The position numbers and the translations under genes are program-made. The notes under the pieces are model-generated. The model worked only from the letters and a program-made list of their open reading frames with translations, did no database searches and was not told the DNA's origin. This document shows, one piece after another, positions 33,492-61,748 of a stretch of DNA of 64,000 bases (its first letter is position 1; each line of letters begins with the position of its first letter). Origin of the DNA: Lachnospiraceae bacterium (GTDB lineage: Bacteria > Bacillota > Clostridia > Lachnospirales > Lachnospiraceae); the NCBI GenBank assembly GCA_016281605.1, contig JAEEJA010000027.1, positions 151,123 through 215,122 of the forward strand. Reading direction: 5' to 3'.

Positions 33492-33568
33492 CTCCGACTG
33501 AGTGAAGCTTGTTATAACCCCCACCTATGCTACGCTTAGAGGTGGGGGATTTCTCCGACTGAGTTAAA
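33492..33568. repeat. Palindromic repeat, IS200/IS605-end-like (copy A)
   Basis: Stem CCCCCACCT (33518-33526) / AGGTGGGGG (33540-33548), flanked by direct repeats CTCCGACTGAGT (33492-33503 and 33553-33564). The right edge contains the rsfS stop codon. Together with the htrA leader element it fills the 301-bp gap between htrA and rsfS (33263-33563); the rest of that gap is AT-rich with a possible htrA -10 (TATAAT) and no gene. Confidence 0.7.
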
Positions 33569-54063: not shown

Positions 54064-55089
54064 TTATATAATTATCATAGCGTCACCGAATGAAAAGAAT
54101 CTGTATCTCTCATTTACTGCTTCGGTGTACGCTTTTAATACATTTTCTTTACCTGCAAAGGCACTTACAAGCATAAGCAAGGTGGATTTTGGAAGATGAA
54201 AATTGGTAATAAGCCCATCTACAGCTTTAAAAGTATAACCCGGATAAATAAATATATCTGTATCTCCCTCTCCTGCTTTTACATGTCCATCATTATCAGA
54301 ACTTGATTCTACAGTCCTTACACTCGTTGTACCAACGCATACAACTCTTCCGCCATTATCTCTAGCTGTATTTATAATATCAGCTGCCTCTTTGCTAACC
54401 CTGTAAAATTCAGTATGCATATGATGTTCTGCAATATTTTCAGCCTTAACCGGTCTGAAAGTTCCAAGTCCTACATGAAGTGTAACCCTTGCAATTTTAA
54501 CTCCCATGGTCTCTATTTCTTCCATGAGATTGTTAGTAAAATGAAGTCCTGCAGTTGGTGCTGCAGCAGAACCATCGTACTTTGCATATACTGTTTGATA
54601 TCTGTTTTTATCCTTTAATTCATGAGTTATGTACGGCGGGAGCGGCATCTGACCAAGCTTATCCAGGATTTCTTCAAATATTCCATCATAGGAAAACTGA
54701 ATTATCCTGTTTCCCTCATCAATTATATCCTTTACACAACCCTTTAACAGACCGTTTCCGAATACAATATTTTGTCCAATATGAGCTTTTCTTCCGGGTC
54801 TTACAAGAGTCTCCCAACTATTATCGGATAATCTTTTAAGAAGCAAAACTTCAATCTTTCCTCCGCTTCCCTCTCTCTGACCATAAAGCCTTGCAGGTAT
54901 TACCTTAGTATCATTTATTACAAGGACATCACCCTTTTTAAGATATTTTTTTACATTTTTAAATATTGTATGTTCTATATCTCCCGTTTGTCTCCCTAAT
55001 TTAAGAAGTCTCGAGGATGTCCTGTCTTCCAATGGATCCTGAGCTATAAGCTCCTCAGGAAGATAATAATCAAAATCCGATGTTTTCAA
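54064..55089 (-). CDS. queA: tRNA preQ1(34) S-adenosylmethionine ribosyltransferase-isomerase
   Basis: A 341-residue enzyme with [24 protein letters not shown] at the start, [26 protein letters not shown], and [10 protein letters not shown] and [22 protein letters not shown] near the end. It makes epoxyqueuosine in tRNA. Other queuosine genes are not in the window. It begins 1 bp after the ABC permease stop. Confidence 0.98.
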
Positions 55090-55090
55090 T

Positions 55091-55978
55091 TTATTTCCTT
55101 GACCTCCGTAATCTATCTTTATTCTTTACAGGCGAAAGCAAATGTGCCGATATACAAAGAATAATAATTGAAATGATAATTCTCATGGAAATACTTATTA
55201 ATTCCCAATATTTCATAATATCAGCACTATCAATCATATTTATTATCTGCGTATTAAGCGATCCTATAAAAAAACTGTCTCCCGATACAGCATGAATTAT
55301 ATCTATAACAGGATTAAGCATAATAACAAATGCAATCCAATTTAAATTTAAATCCTGTATATTTAACCCAAAGAATCTTATGTACATATACGTAATCAAT
55401 ACAATGCCCACTGTAAATATACTTACAACTACTATAGTTACATAAGAACATATGGTTGCACTTATAACCTTTTTAAATATACATGAAGACAGTATACCCA
55501 TACTTCCGATAAATATACTACTAACTATTATTTCAAATATAAACTGTATTATATTTAATATGGATATACCTCCTATAGTAAATATAATGGATATAACAGG
55601 CAGACTAGATAAAACATAAAGTATCAACAGACTTAATGATTCAAGCAGTTTTCCAAGAACTATTGTATAACTATTTATCCCTGTAGACAAGATTAAATCC
55701 AAAGTTTGTTTTTCTCGCTCCGAAGCAATACTGGCAGCCGTAAAGAAAGGAACCATTATAAGAACCATGAGCGTCTCTAATACTATCATAATATTGTATA
55801 TATCCTGTGAAGCAGCATAATCAATATTATCGTTAATATTTATATTAAATTTCATTTCAAATATAAACATAGATATAATAAGCAATATGAGATTATAAAT
55901 CATAATACCGAAAACAAACTTAAAAGAACGACTTCTAAGTCTCATTTGTTTTAAAAAAATAGAATTTATCCTTAACAT
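55091..55978 (-). CDS. ABC-2 type transporter permease
   Basis: A 295-residue protein with about six membrane segments and the cytoplasmic [22 protein letters not shown] segment typical of ABC-2 permeases that pair with NatA-like ATPases. A large extracytoplasmic loop lies between the first two segments. It pairs with the ATPase 39 bp upstream. The substrate is unknown. Confidence 0.9.
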
Positions 55979-56017
55979 AATCTATCTCCGTTTAATATTA
56001 AGAAAAGTATACTTAAT

Positions 56018-56938
56018 TCATGCATTATCTTTAATATGCAAAAATACTTTTTCCAGATTACCTTTTTTCCTATCAAAGCTTTGTATCTTAACTCCACTTT
56101 TTATAAGACTTGTCAAAAGATCTGCTTCATCGTTTTTTGTGCCGTTAAAATTGATCATAAGAAGCATGTCATCAATTGAAATACTATTTACAAATCTGTT
56201 TTCCTTTAGTATTTTAATTGCTCTTTGCTTCTCTTCGCATATATTTATGTATATGGGATCTTTCTCATTTATAGATTTCATTATTTCGTCCATAGAGCCA
56301 TTAATAACCATCTGATTCTGATCAAGCACTCCTATAGATGTACATAGATCAGAAAGATCGGTAATTATATGTGAACTTATTATTACTGAAGTTCCATCCA
56401 TTGCCAATTCACTTAAAAATTGCTTTACCATTATCCTAGAGGAAGTGTCCATACCGGAGCAGGGTTCATCTAATATTAATAGTTTAGGTGAATGTATGAC
56501 ACTCCTTAACAGACACAGCTTTTGTTTCATACCCTTTGATAAAGTATCAACATACTCCTGCATAATATCCTTCATGCCAAAAAGTTCTAGAAGCTCTATA
56601 CATCTTTTATCCGCCTTTTTATCATAAATACCGTATATTCCTGCAAAAAAGAGCATGTATTCAATAACCTTTATATTATCATAAACTCCGAAAAAATCAG
56701 GCATATAACCAATATTTTTTTGATACGAATTTATATTTGCATATATATTTTCATCATAAAAATATATATTTCCCTTGTCAGGCATTAAAAGTCCGGATGT
56801 AATCTTCATTAAAGTGGTTTTCCCGGCTCCATTTTCACCCATTAAGCCAAATATACTGCCTTCTTCAATCTCGATATTTATATCCTTTAAAGCGCTAAAC
56901 CCAGAATAGCTTTTACTAATATTGTCAATTCTAAGCAT
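56018..56938 (-). CDS. ABC transporter ATP-binding protein (ABC-2/NatA type)
   Basis: A 306-residue ATPase: Walker A GENGAGKTTLMKITSG, signature TLSKGMKQKLCLLR, Walker B KLLILDEPCSGMD, H-loop IISSHI. The C-terminal about 90 residues are a regulatory extension. It lies 89 bp downstream of the 927-residue exported protein gene, separated from it by palindromic repeat copy B. Confidence 0.94.
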   Translation of the reverse strand: MLRIDNISKSYSGFSALKDINIEIEEGSIFGLMGENGAGKTTLMKITSGLLMPDKGNIYFYDENIYANINSYQKNIGYMPDFFGVYDNIKVIEYMLFFAGIYGIYDKKADKRCIELLELFGMKDIMQEYVDTLSKGMKQKLCLLRSVIHSPKLLILDEPCSGMDTSSRIMVKQFLSELAMDGTSVIISSHIITDLSDLCTSIGVLDQNQMVINGSMDEIMKSINEKDPIYINICEEKQRAIKILKENRFVNSISIDDMLLMINFNGTKNDEADLLTSLIKSGVKIQSFDRKKGNLEKVFLHIKDNA

Positions 56939-56972
56939 ATTAACCTACTTTCATCAGGATTCGCTTGTCAAT

Positions 56973-57025
56973 ACCCCTGCCTACACTTAAGCTTAGAGGT
57001 GGGGGATTTCTCCGACTGAATTAAA
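56973..57025. repeat. Palindromic repeat, IS200/IS605-end-like (copy B)
   Basis: CCCC-TG-CCT (56974-56982) pairs imperfectly with AGGTGGGGG (56997-57005), then GGATTTCTCCGACTGA as in copy A. The edge CGACTGAATTAAA (57013-57025) lies 2 bp from the stop codon of the 927-residue gene. Confidence 0.7.
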
Positions 57026-57027
57026 GC

Positions 57028-59811
57028 TTATTTCTTCGAAATCAAAAGATTCGGCAATTTTAAGCCTGTAGACTCAATCTTTGAATCAATCCTATAATTA
57101 AGTGTCATATAACCATCTTTATCTATATAATCTTCCAACTTTATAAGAGTTTTTTCCACTCCACTTTCAAAAACAACATCATAATCTTTGGTCCTTAGGT
57201 TATAAGCTGCTATATTTCCGTTAAAAACTTCTGAATATATGGAGCTGTATATATTAAATTCAGGATTGTCCTGAGTACTGTAAATAATTGCATTTGGCAA
57301 GTCATTTGGATCAAATTTATATTTTATGGATACATTTTTACTGTCCTCAAAGAAGATATTAATACCATCAGTAATGCTGTCATCAAATAAAACAGCATAC
57401 ATATCAATAGATGTATCTGCTTTTCTTCCTTCAAACATGTAACTAATATCAATGTTTTCACTAAAAGCCGTAACTCCATGACTATTTAGTTTCATCTCAT
57501 CTATAAAATAATTGGATGGAGAATCTAAAAATCCGTAAATATATATTCCCTGCGTATTTAAAGGAGATGTAACATAAGCATCTATCAAGCTTTTCATACG
57601 TTGCTCCGTTATACTGTATGAAGATTTGGATGCATTTATATTCTCTTTAAGAACAAGGGCGCTGATATTTTTCAAATCATAATTATAATCCTGGGGAGTC
57701 ATATAATTAACACTTGATACTATTGTACTATTCTCCTTGGTTACAGCGCTGATTTCTTCATTAACATCAGCCTCTTCAACCGAAGAATCAAAAGAAAACT
57801 CTTCTCCCTTCTTTAAGTCACCTATACAAACTATATAACCATTTCTGTATATAAACGCTTTTTTTATATCAGCCTCAAAATTATTGATGATTTTTCCATA
57901 TATACGTTCCGAATCATTATAAATATCAGCAATAACCTTTTCATCAGAATTTATAGAAGCCCTGTCTAAAAAGTTTTTTCCGTTAAACGACTTATTGTTA
58001 TTTAATAAAAGGCTTGTACCCTCCTTAGTATACTCTATTCCAAAATCATATTCTGAAGATTTTTCTTCTGAGTCCTTTACTATCAGTGAAGTATCTGGGT
58101 TATTACTTATATCATCATCTACAAAAAAAGGCGTAATATCTCTATTTTCTTCAAATTCCATATTTAAATTAAGACTCTTTACAGGCACAATACTAAAATA
58201 AGTATCCATTTGAAGCTTTCCGCCATCATTAACCTTTATCTGAGACAAATAATTTACAAAAGATTCATCTAGTCTCGTACTGGATCCCAGCAAAAATATC
58301 AATACTGAAAAGAAGCATGAAAAAGCAGGAATCGATACCCATAAGAGCATATTTCTGTTTCTTTTGTTTAAAAAACTGTATAATAAAGGACAACTTATAA
58401 TTAAATATATGACAACTATTATAGCATATAATTTAAGATTTGGTAAGGATGTAGCATCATTTTTACTTAATCCCTCAAGATAAGTTGTCTCGGAATTATT
58501 GGTAAAACTGTTAAATCTTTCTCTCTTAATCCTAGTCTTTGCGTTATCAGAAATATTGTCATTTATTAATTGATATATATTTGTGCCTAAAACCTTTGAG
58601 TCATTATCATCATTAAAAGAAATATCGGTTTCAAAAAATAACACTCTTCCCAGTCTGACATCTTTATATTGTATTATGGGTTCATTATTTTCCAGTATCA
58701 AATGAGTCGAATCCATAATATTTATATTGGTTATATCTCTTTTTAAAACCTTTATTTTTAAATTTGAAACATACTCTTCTTCATCTGTTGAAGGAGATAA
58801 TGATAATCTTTTATCGAGCTCGGAAGAAGGATATGTTTCAAGTAATTTGTTATATAATTCGCCCGACTTTGAAACAAGATAAGTATTATCCTCAAGATGG
58901 GCTATTTCATAATTCCACTTTTTATAATCCTGAGAATTTAAATTATCAACAAGAAATTGTTTAACATCCTCATAAATCTGTTTCTTTAAATCTTCCTTTA
59001 AGAATTCTTTTATCATTGGAAGCCTGGATTTCTGAAGACCGAATGTTGTTTGATTAATAAGTGCTGAACCAATGGACTTAATACTATACATATCAGAAGC
59101 AAATTCATTTATATATCCGATATCTTGATCCTTCGCAGAAAGAACAAGAGTCCCTCCGTTATATACCCACTCTTTCAAAGCCAAAATAACATCGTTAGAA
59201 AGTGATGTAGCTGTAGGATCGATAATAATACAATCATATTGATCATATACTTTATAATCATCCATTAAATCATTTTCAGTCATATAAAAAAGTTCCGAAT
59301 CTGATTTATCCAGATAATCATATGCAGAATAATTCTCTGATATTACACCAATATATATTTTTTCTGAATTTGAAACAAGGTTTAAACCTAAATTATCAGA
59401 AAGAATAACATTTTGCTTTTTATCCACCAAAGAAAAAATAAAATAATAGTTATTAAATTCGGCAGGAAATATAAGAGAATAATCTTGTTCTCCCTGTTTT
59501 ACGGATATTTGTTTTTGAAACATGTTTTTTTGTTTTCCGGGAAATGTTACTCTTAAATATCCGCTGAAATCATCTCTTTCGGATTTTAAATTAATATTTA
59601 ATACAACGTACCTATCTTCCTTTACATATCTGGAATTCCTGCATGTAATATCACAGGAAATCTTGTCGCCTTTGATATTTACGCTTATCCTACTTGAAAG
59701 CTTTTTTATGGAATCCACATTTGCATACGAGTTTTTGGGATTAAATGCTAAAATACCAAAGACAAAAACAAACAAATATAAAGATATTTTAAATATTTTT
59801 AATATTTTCAT
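57028..59811 (-). CDS. Large exported membrane protein with glutamine-amidotransferase-like fold region
   Basis: 927 residues. The signal peptide ends near NSYANVD (about residue 30). The N-terminal about 120 residues are beta-rich. Residues about 155-260 (IGVISENYSAYDYL, then YDCIIIDP and LKEWVYNGGTLVLSAK) resemble the class I glutamine-amidotransferase-like domains of ABC-associated exported proteins. Two membrane segments lie near 457-479 and 487-507, followed by about 400 extracytoplasmic residues rich in beta structure. I do not recognise a named family. Neighbours are the two-component system upstream and an ABC-2 transporter downstream, which suggests an envelope-sensing or transport complex. 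Confidence 0.8.
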   Translation of the reverse strand: MKILKIFKISLYLFVFVFGILAFNPKNSYANVDSIKKLSSRISVNIKGDKISCDITCRNSRYVKEDRYVVLNINLKSERDDFSGYLRVTFPGKQKNMFQKQISVKQGEQDYSLIFPAEFNNYYFIFSLVDKKQNVILSDNLGLNLVSNSEKIYIGVISENYSAYDYLDKSDSELFYMTENDLMDDYKVYDQYDCIIIDPTATSLSNDVILALKEWVYNGGTLVLSAKDQDIGYINEFASDMYSIKSIGSALINQTTFGLQKSRLPMIKEFLKEDLKKQIYEDVKQFLVDNLNSQDYKKWNYEIAHLEDNTYLVSKSGELYNKLLETYPSSELDKRLSLSPSTDEEEYVSNLKIKVLKRDITNINIMDSTHLILENNEPIIQYKDVRLGRVLFFETDISFNDDNDSKVLGTNIYQLINDNISDNAKTRIKRERFNSFTNNSETTYLEGLSKNDATSLPNLKLYAIIVVIYLIISCPLLYSFLNKRNRNMLLWVSIPAFSCFFSVLIFLLGSSTRLDESFVNYLSQIKVNDGGKLQMDTYFSIVPVKSLNLNMEFEENRDITPFFVDDDISNNPDTSLIVKDSEEKSSEYDFGIEYTKEGTSLLLNNNKSFNGKNFLDRASINSDEKVIADIYNDSERIYGKIINNFEADIKKAFIYRNGYIVCIGDLKKGEEFSFDSSVEEADVNEEISAVTKENSTIVSSVNYMTPQDYNYDLKNISALVLKENINASKSSYSITEQRMKSLIDAYVTSPLNTQGIYIYGFLDSPSNYFIDEMKLNSHGVTAFSENIDISYMFEGRKADTSIDMYAVLFDDSITDGINIFFEDSKNVSIKYKFDPNDLPNAIIYSTQDNPEFNIYSSIYSEVFNGNIAAYNLRTKDYDVVFESGVEKTLIKLEDYIDKDGYMTLNYRIDSKIESTGLKLPNLLISKK

Positions 59812-59820
59812 TATCTGCCT

Positions 59821-61053
59821 CTATTCTTTATCATCGCCCTTCATCTGAGGAAGGCTCATGGTAAAGGTCGTACCTGTTATATCACTTTTTACCGTTAAAT
59901 CACCATCATGCATAAGCATAACTTCTTTTGCTATGTTAAGTCCAAGACCTGTTCCACCCGTGGATTCTGACCTGGAATCTTCAACTCGATAAAACTTTTC
60001 AAACAGATGAGAAAGACTTTCTTCCGGAATGACAAGTCCAAAATTAGTAACAGCTATATAATACATATCATCCTTCTTAGAAAATTTAACTATAAGTTTC
60101 TTTCCATCTTTGCCGTATTTACATGCATTTGAAAACAGATTAGATAAAGCTCTCGCAAAAAGTGAAACATCTACACAAACCGTAGCCGTCTTTTCATCAT
60201 TTATAAATGTACACTCCATCTGATTAGATTCAAGCATAGGATAGAATTCTTCTATCATCTGTTCTATAAGCATTACAAGATCAATCTCAGTCTTTTTTAG
60301 CTTTAACTCACCACTTGAAATTTTAGTATAGTTAAATAAGTCTTCTATCATTTTTTCAAGTCTATTGGATTTTTGGACTGCAATATCTGCATATTTCTTT
60401 CTTTCTTCCGAAGTAAAGTTTTCTTCATCCACAGCTAACTGTATATAACCAACAACCGATGTAATAGGCGTTCTTAAATCATGGGCTATGCATGTAATAA
60501 GATCTTTATTAGCTTTAAGAACCTGTCTTTCCTTATCCATAAGATTTTTTACGGTTATATTCAAAGCATTTACACTTTTTGATATATCTCCAATTTCATC
60601 ATTCTTTTTATATTTTATCTTTTCATCGGTTTCGCCCTTTGCAATTCTTTTGATATTATAAGAAATCATAGATAAATCATTGGTAATTTTTCTACAAAAA
60701 AGACTGTAATAAAAACCAAATAATAATATACTTGAAATAACAACAAGCAAAATAATAATGATCATGGTGGATAAATCAATTCCAAAAAGCGTCTTTATCT
60801 TATCTTCAAGTCTTTCAGGGCGCGCCTTATAAACACCGCCTAACCCCATAATATCACTTGAAGGAGGTTCATCTTGAACCTCCTCATAATTCATACCAAA
60901 TCCTTTATCAGTGCTTCCTAAATTAACAGAAACAAGATAAATAAGACTTCCTATAACAAAAATTGTAGTCATAGTTAAGATAAGACTGATAATAGCATAT
61001 AAAACCAGACTTAATCTTAGACTCTTAAATAAACTTCTTTTATTATATGACAT
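59821..61053 (-). CDS. Sensor histidine kinase
   Basis: A 410-residue protein: membrane segments near 13-38 and 93-115 flank an extracytoplasmic loop of about 55 residues, then a HAMP domain, a HisKA domain (ITCIAHDLRTPITSVVGY, His near 190) and HATPase (NLFSNACKYGKDG, GGTGLGLNIAKEV). The small sensor loop suggests intramembrane or accessory-protein sensing. It lies 2 bp after the response regulator gene and 9 bp before the 927-residue protein gene. Confidence 0.96.
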   Translation of the reverse strand: MSYNKRSLFKSLRLSLVLYAIISLILTMTTIFVIGSLIYLVSVNLGSTDKGFGMNYEEVQDEPPSSDIMGLGGVYKARPERLEDKIKTLFGIDLSTMIIIILLVVISSILLFGFYYSLFCRKITNDLSMISYNIKRIAKGETDEKIKYKKNDEIGDISKSVNALNITVKNLMDKERQVLKANKDLITCIAHDLRTPITSVVGYIQLAVDEENFTSEERKKYADIAVQKSNRLEKMIEDLFNYTKISSGELKLKKTEIDLVMLIEQMIEEFYPMLESNQMECTFINDEKTATVCVDVSLFARALSNLFSNACKYGKDGKKLIVKFSKKDDMYYIAVTNFGLVIPEESLSHLFEKFYRVEDSRSESTGGTGLGLNIAKEVMLMHDGDLTVKSDITGTTFTMSLPQMKGDDKE

Positions 61054-61055
61054 AA

Positions 61056-61748
61056 TTATTTATTAACCTTATATCCGACTCCCCATACCGTCTTTATAAT
61101 TTGTGAACCATCTTTACCCTTTTCTATCTTTGCTCTGAGTCTTCTTATATGAACCATAACAGTATTACTCATCTGACAGACTTCTTCCTTCCATACATTC
61201 TCAAAAATCTCATCAGTGCTATATGTAACTCCCGGATGTGAGGCAAGGAAATACAATATATCAAACTCTATTGGTGTTAATTCTACAAATTCACCGTAGG
61301 CCTTTACTCTTCTTCCATCCTTATCCATCCAAAGATTTTCAACAGTAAGCTCACTTGTATGTTTATTATCATTAGCGCCACCGAGTTCATTATATCTTCT
61401 TAATGCAGATTTAACACGAGCCAGTAGCTCTAAATTTTTAAAAGGTTTTGTTATGTAATCATCAGCACCATTTTCAAGTCCGGTGACCTTGTCAAATTCA
61501 GTATCTCTGGCACTTAACATGATAATCGGTATCTGACTGCTTTGTCTTATATTACGGCATACTTCGTTACCATCAATCCCCGGCATCATGATATCGAGTA
61601 TAGCAAGATTAATATCATTTTCTTCAAATATTTTTAAAGCAGTATTACCATCATTTGCTTTTAAAACATTGTACCCCTCTGATGTTAAATGAATTTCAAT
61701 CAAATCAGCAATTTCTTTTTCATCATCAACAACAAGAATATTATACAT
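61056..61748 (-). CDS. OmpR-family response regulator
   Basis: A 230-residue protein: receiver domain with Asp8/Asp9, phospho-acceptor Asp52 (LAILDIMMPG) and Lys in ITKPFKN; OmpR/PhoB winged helix (VELTPIEFDILYFLASHPGV, HIRRLRAKIE). Paired with the adjacent kinase. The ribosome site GGAGG is followed closely upstream by a 12-nt homopolymer (61761-61772) in the gap from metK. Likely targets are the 927-residue protein and ABC genes. Confidence 0.97.
   Translation of the reverse strand: MYNILVVDDEKEIADLIEIHLTSEGYNVLKANDGNTALKIFEENDINLAILDIMMPGIDGNEVCRNIRQSSQIPIIMLSARDTEFDKVTGLENGADDYITKPFKNLELLARVKSALRRYNELGGANDNKHTSELTVENLWMDKDGRRVKAYGEFVELTPIEFDILYFLASHPGVTYSTDEIFENVWKEEVCQMSNTVMVHIRRLRAKIEKGKDGSQIIKTVWGVGYKVNK

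Follow-up and report, generated by a model that had tools for sequence, protein, structure and literature searches.

A probable two-component-controlled variant of a Clostridia-wide GIFT-domain ABC-2 module in a Lachnospiraceae bacterium

Five adjacent genes on the minus strand of a Lachnospiraceae genome encode, in this order, a response regulator, a histidine kinase, a 927-aa exported protein (given here the working name BIG), an ABC ATPase and an ABC-2 permease. With moderate confidence, we consider these genes to be a two-component-controlled variant of a GIFT-domain ABC-2 module found throughout the Clostridia, in which BIG would act as a non-catalytic extracellular accessory subunit. As the original prediction for this DNA had it, no named system with exactly these five genes was found. 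What is new here is the two-component-linked form of the GIFT-domain ABC module; its relatives, the GldAFG-like operons and the DUF4350-MoxR-VWA clusters, are of an already known kind. The architecture and history of the module are well supported, and proposals for its substrate and signal are given below.

The DNA analyzed was a 64,000-nt stretch, referred to here as the window, of Lachnospiraceae bacterium assembly GCA_016281605.1 (contig JAEEJA010000027.1, positions 151,123-215,122, forward strand), and nucleotide positions without a locus label are given in window numbering. The module lies at 55091-61748 on the minus strand, where the open reading frame list and Pfam searches recovered all five genes in the order, at the coordinates and with the families previously proposed for them. 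The OmpR/VanR-like response regulator (61056..61748, 230 aa) matched Response_reg (3.6e-31) and Trans_reg_C (7e-25), and the sensor histidine kinase (59821..61053, 410 aa) carries two transmembrane (TM) helices and HAMP-like, HisKA and HATPase_c domains. BIG (57028..59811), whose domain set was taken from relatives and a structural model, is followed by a DrrA/GldA-like ABC ATPase (56018..56938, 306 aa; ABC_tran 9.6e-32) and a weakly GldF-like ABC-2 type permease with 6-7 TM helices (55091..55978, 295 aa; ABC2_membrane_3 2.4e-6).

The intergenic gaps are 2 nt between regulator and kinase, 9 nt between kinase and BIG, 89 nt between BIG and ATPase (56939..57027) and 39 nt between ATPase and permease. 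The earlier description of tight spacing with one repeat insertion was thus accurate and needed only the refinement that the tightness runs on into queA (54064..55089, minus strand), which begins 1 nt 3' of the permease gene by open reading frame spacing. The transcript is therefore probably longer than the five genes, and queA, which also adjoins the operon in the congeners L071 and L072, is probably co-transcribed with the module without being a functional member of it. Because the housekeeping genes metK and queA closely flank the five-gene unit, its dedicated regulation is offered here as a proposal only. Rfam searches gave no match in the module region, promoter-like sites in the region were not more frequent than in shuffled sequence, and a single-protein scan of the genome contigs returned no match. 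Loci L074 and L075 carry a second two-component pair between metK and the regulator-kinase-BIG operon.

A repeat search placed a dispersed palindromic repeat of ~60 bp (CCCCCACCTCTAAGC...GTAGGTGGGGG) at 56957-57020, within the BIG-ATPase gap, and a second copy inside the window at about 33507-33568. At least 40 scored matches to this repeat were found in the genome, several of them near contig ends. The repeat is missing from the BIG-ATPase gap of L071 and L072, the two congeners with the operon, and it is therefore a lineage-specific insertion that is no part of the system. We take it to resemble an IS200/IS605-type end or a MITE; the genome has one TnpB-like gene.

BIG had been described as an exported membrane protein with two membrane segments, and TM prediction agreed, placing a signal-like helix at the N-terminus and two central TM helices at residues 463-481 and 489-507. 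Its parts were assigned as a signal peptide, an Ig-like domain (~47-147), a GIFT/DUF7408-like domain (~150-240 and 352-420), a TM hairpin (459-512) and a beta-rich extracellular C-terminal half (518-926). The window BIG stayed below the cut-off of every Pfam and NCBIfam model, so that the naming of domains leans on relatives and on the structural model. Amongst 58 family members, including the window's, weak matches to DUF4350 were seen in 21 and to DUF7408 in 17, and the matches in 34 phylum-wide relatives were to DUF7408 (16), DUF4350 (9), ABC_transp_aux, which is the GldG domain (2), and IFT52_GIFT (1). The DUF7408 cut-off of 27 bits was exceeded by relatives L121 (34.4 bits) and L202 (31.4 bits), and a Syntrophomonas wolfei copy scores above this cut-off; the window BIG, with its own DUF7408 and DUF4350 scores below cut-off, aligns with its family over the full length.

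In the model of full-length BIG (mean pLDDT 69.7, pTM 0.69), an Ig-like sandwich is followed by an alpha/beta domain and then by two long TM helices, and the second half of the protein is rich in beta structure. A PDB search with this whole model returned generic beta-sandwich matches only, and the GIFT domain was therefore modeled alone (pLDDT 75), yielding moderate structural matches (E 5e-5 to 1e-2, TM-score about 0.45) to GATase1-like proteins, GH42 enzymes and the N-terminal domain of IFT52 (5fmr). Archaeal DUF4350 has been linked by HHpred to GldG and to the GH42 trimerization domain in the section of the literature cited here (PMC5898192). In the family alignment, no Cys or His reached 60% conservation, which makes amidotransferase activity unlikely, and a catalytic amidotransferase was ruled out as a candidate on this ground. 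The fold behind the region originally called amidotransferase-like is thus real, but its catalytic residues are not conserved and it is better named a GIFT/DUF7408/DUF4350 domain, modeled as a GIFT/GATase1-like fold without the catalytic Cys-His pair. The TM hairpin ranks amongst the best-conserved parts of BIG, with the pattern GPG[LI]Y..L[KR]K in the alignment of the Hungatella-type subgroup, and this conservation would fit a predicted role in docking.

A single-sequence search detected relatives of BIG in 61 of 200 genomes from the same family, and a profile search did so in 52 of 300 genomes from the phylum; within the genus, 3 of the 4 genomes have one. In the 60 family loci, the ATPase gene was directly downstream of BIG wherever this could be assessed (59/59), the permease gene followed in 58/58, and a two-component pair or kinase was upstream in 52/60, with MoxR downstream in 11/49. 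These counts bear out both the treatment of the five genes as one conserved unit and the proposed tie of BIG to an ABC-2 transporter, and the same arrangement was seen in 61 named loci that partially overlap with the family set. Outer neighbors vary while the five-gene order holds across dozens of genera, which places the grouping far above chance.

Phylum-wide, the ATPase and the permease were each scored in 31 of 34 loci, and this scoring missed the ATPase of L142 and the permease of L143 owing to its distance limits. Only two of these loci, L145 and L153, were without both genes. BIG homologues without ABC-2 neighbors, which the original prediction had named as evidence against it, therefore amounted to 2 of 34 phylum-wide loci and to none of the assessable family loci, leaving it standing. 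Its implied uniqueness did not hold up, as the BIG-ATPase-permease core is spread across the Clostridia and, in loci outside Lachnospiraceae, commonly has MoxR-DUF58-VWA genes after it and no two-component pair upstream (pair or kinase upstream in 0/33 phylum-wide loci, MoxR downstream in 21/33).

The fuller operon has the order BIG, ATPase, permease, Gly-rich coiled-coil membrane protein, MoxR, DUF58 and BatA/VWA. Such Bat-like MoxR-DUF58-BatA operons lie downstream of the trio in most assessable phylum-wide relatives and are absent from the window locus, where no MoxR, DUF58 or VWA gene was found. Seven family loci, near relatives of the window amongst them, hold both the two-component pair and the MoxR-DUF58-VWA genes, and all nine genes are kept in the near relatives L033 and L034. 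A collagen-like, Gly-rich coiled-coil membrane protein is encoded between permease and MoxR (L033:4563-6095 and homologues); a GldG-like identity was ruled out for it, as profile tests picked up nothing beyond coiled-coil and collagen-like repeats. The genome has two MoxR clusters at other sites (L227:4626-9213 and L228:8091-12444), which are of another type and unlinked to BIG; besides MoxR, each encodes a DUF58-like and a long membrane protein, both named by eye.

In a quickly built maximum-likelihood phylogeny of 103 BIG proteins, which has open forks and carries a long-branch warning, the two-component label changed 3 times and the MoxR label 9 times, counts that by themselves do not separate gain from loss. 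The phylum-wide loci, none of which has the two-component pair, fall outside Lachnospiraceae, and from this we infer, as the simplest course, one gain of the pair in that family and repeated losses of the MoxR genes. The five-gene set of the window has the look of a Clostridia-wide operon that was reduced and came under the control of a sensor.

The regulator and the kinase both scored below the cut-offs of the vancomycin-type models, with 285 bits for VanR-F/M (cut-off 460) and 253 bits for VanS (cut-off 400), and a Van resistance regulator was ruled out on this basis. The small sensor loop noted earlier for the kinase was borne out, the external loop measuring ~59 aa in the window kinase and, at the median, 29 aa in 91 kinases of such loci. 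The ATPase was below cut-off for both drrA (200 bits) and GldA (189.8 bits, cut-off 402.6), and the permease scored 31.6 bits against a GldF cut-off of 288.5. Anti-phage defense was also ruled out, as the ATPase alone gave matches and these were to generic models of ATPases. The pairwise-distance correlation was 0.65 for kinase and BIG (permutation maximum 0.21) versus 0.33 for kinase and ATPase, values that are confounded by shared species history. BIG is the fastest-evolving component, with 22% mean identity versus 66% for the regulator.

The trio resembles GldA-GldF-GldG, which combines an ATPase, an ABC-2 permease and a membrane-anchored extracytoplasmic GIFT-domain protein in Bacteroidota gliding, with GldG-like operons occurring elsewhere too. 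Compared to GldG, however, BIG adds an Ig domain, a central TM hairpin and a large beta-rich half, and it gave no match to the GldG model; the gene order of the trio also differs, and the window ATPase and permease fall far under the GldA and GldF cut-offs. A separate GldAFG-like operon is present on contig C93 of this genome (L233:3933-7440); a putative DUF4340 gene follows it, and the two together span L233:3933-8876. The fuller bacterial operons additionally resemble the archaeal DUF4350 (arCOG01314)-MoxR-VWA clusters in having a GIFT-domain membrane protein, a MoxR ATPase and a VWA protein. The cited section on archaeal clusters presents these as a predicted secretion or remodeling complex and mentions no ABC transporter (PMC5898192), whereas the window lineage is without MoxR and VWA and has an ABC-2 transporter and a two-component pair.

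A further likeness is to Bce-type systems, in which a regulator, a loop-poor kinase, an ATPase and a permease are encoded in one operon together with a large extracellular domain. In Bce modules, the transporter itself bears the large external domain and pairs with a loop-poor kinase, the kinase loops being 3-11 aa long (PMC3023708). In contrast, the extracellular domain here sits on a separate protein, BIG, the kinase loops, at ~59 aa here and a median of 29 aa in related loci, are longer, and the permease is a 295-aa ABC-2 protein with 6-7 TM helices, where the Bce definition calls for a 10-TM permease with a ~200-residue external loop. Given these departures in permease type and loop length, the Bce analogy is functional only.

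By analogy with these systems, the best reading is an ABC module of the GldAFG-like kind, which would serve export or maintenance of the envelope and which the kinase would watch in the fashion of Bce modules. The two-helix hairpin of BIG would dock on the ABC-2 permease, its Ig, GIFT and C-terminal beta domains, exposed on the outer side of the membrane, may hold a substrate or cell-wall partners, and the ATPase would power export or envelope remodeling, in the way that GldG supposedly serves GldA-GldF. The BIG-permease contact, the outward direction of transport and the substrate are all predictions of this scheme. In the fuller operon, the MoxR-DUF58-VWA genes after the trio would supply an assembly or chaperone module, which most Lachnospiraceae would have lost while gaining the adjoining short-loop kinase and regulator. 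Since the kinase loops are small for a ligand domain and BIG has a large exposed surface, we propose, by the Bce analogy, that the kinase most likely senses which state the BIG-transporter complex is in and controls how strongly the complex is expressed.

Other explanations would place the same genes in a different context. The original prediction had raised a response to envelope damage or antimicrobial peptides, which is a candidate role. Tentatively possible is a secretion or surface-assembly system, in which surface proteins or polymers would be the cargo that the trio exports or puts in place, with the two-component pair merely tuning expression. The cited section of PMC5898192 makes the same proposal for the archaeal DUF4350-MoxR-VWA clusters, to which the DUF4350/DUF7408 and MoxR-VWA links of the BIG family correspond, and Flavobacterium psychrophilum without GldG has fewer secreted proteins (PMC5682007); however, the window lineage is without the MoxR-VWA part and the window holds no linked dedicated cargo gene. 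An antimicrobial-peptide sensing or resistance module, with a transporter that removes or shields against peptides and BIG as an external sensor like the large BceB loop, seems unlikely, even though the gene content resembles that of two-component/ABC modules, the kinase loops are short, the regulator and kinase are VanR/VanS-like, the extracellular protein evolves fast and the Bce definition (PMC3023708) lends it support. The permease is of the ABC-2 type and not a 10-TM BceB, the kinase loops exceed those of BceS, and the core occurs phylum-wide without an adjacent two-component pair, so that peptide sensing via this kinase cannot have been ancestral. The close flanking by metK and queA would also suit a pair and a transporter that are unrelated and stand together for transcriptional convenience, but this is highly improbable considering that their order is constant in dozens of genera despite changing outer neighbors and that few changes were found on the BIG tree.

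The two-component-controlled GIFT-domain ABC-2 module, which we prefer over these explanations, could be taken further to a new class of two-component/ABC signaling, in which a separate GIFT-domain surface protein would sense the envelope and signal via an ABC-2 transporter to a short-loop kinase, and in which the kinase pair would have replaced MoxR-VWA during Lachnospiraceae evolution. We regard this extension as rather doubtful.

The BIG-ATPase-permease trio is Clostridia-wide, and gut bacteria of the genera Hungatella, Enterocloster and Fusicatenibacter are among its carriers, yet DUF7408 had no mention in the literature searched. As the Lachnospiraceae variant couples the trio to a sensor, its inducing signal could be screened for directly, and this would open a way to learn what the wider GIFT-ABC-MoxR family does in bacteria and archaea. 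In Hungatella/Enterocloster-type loci (L079:10990-15009, and similarly L051, L064, L155-L158 and L161), the five genes are followed by genes for TIM-barrel, SPFH/Band 7, zinc-finger and TPM-domain proteins, a conserved set that may hint at a membrane-stress context.
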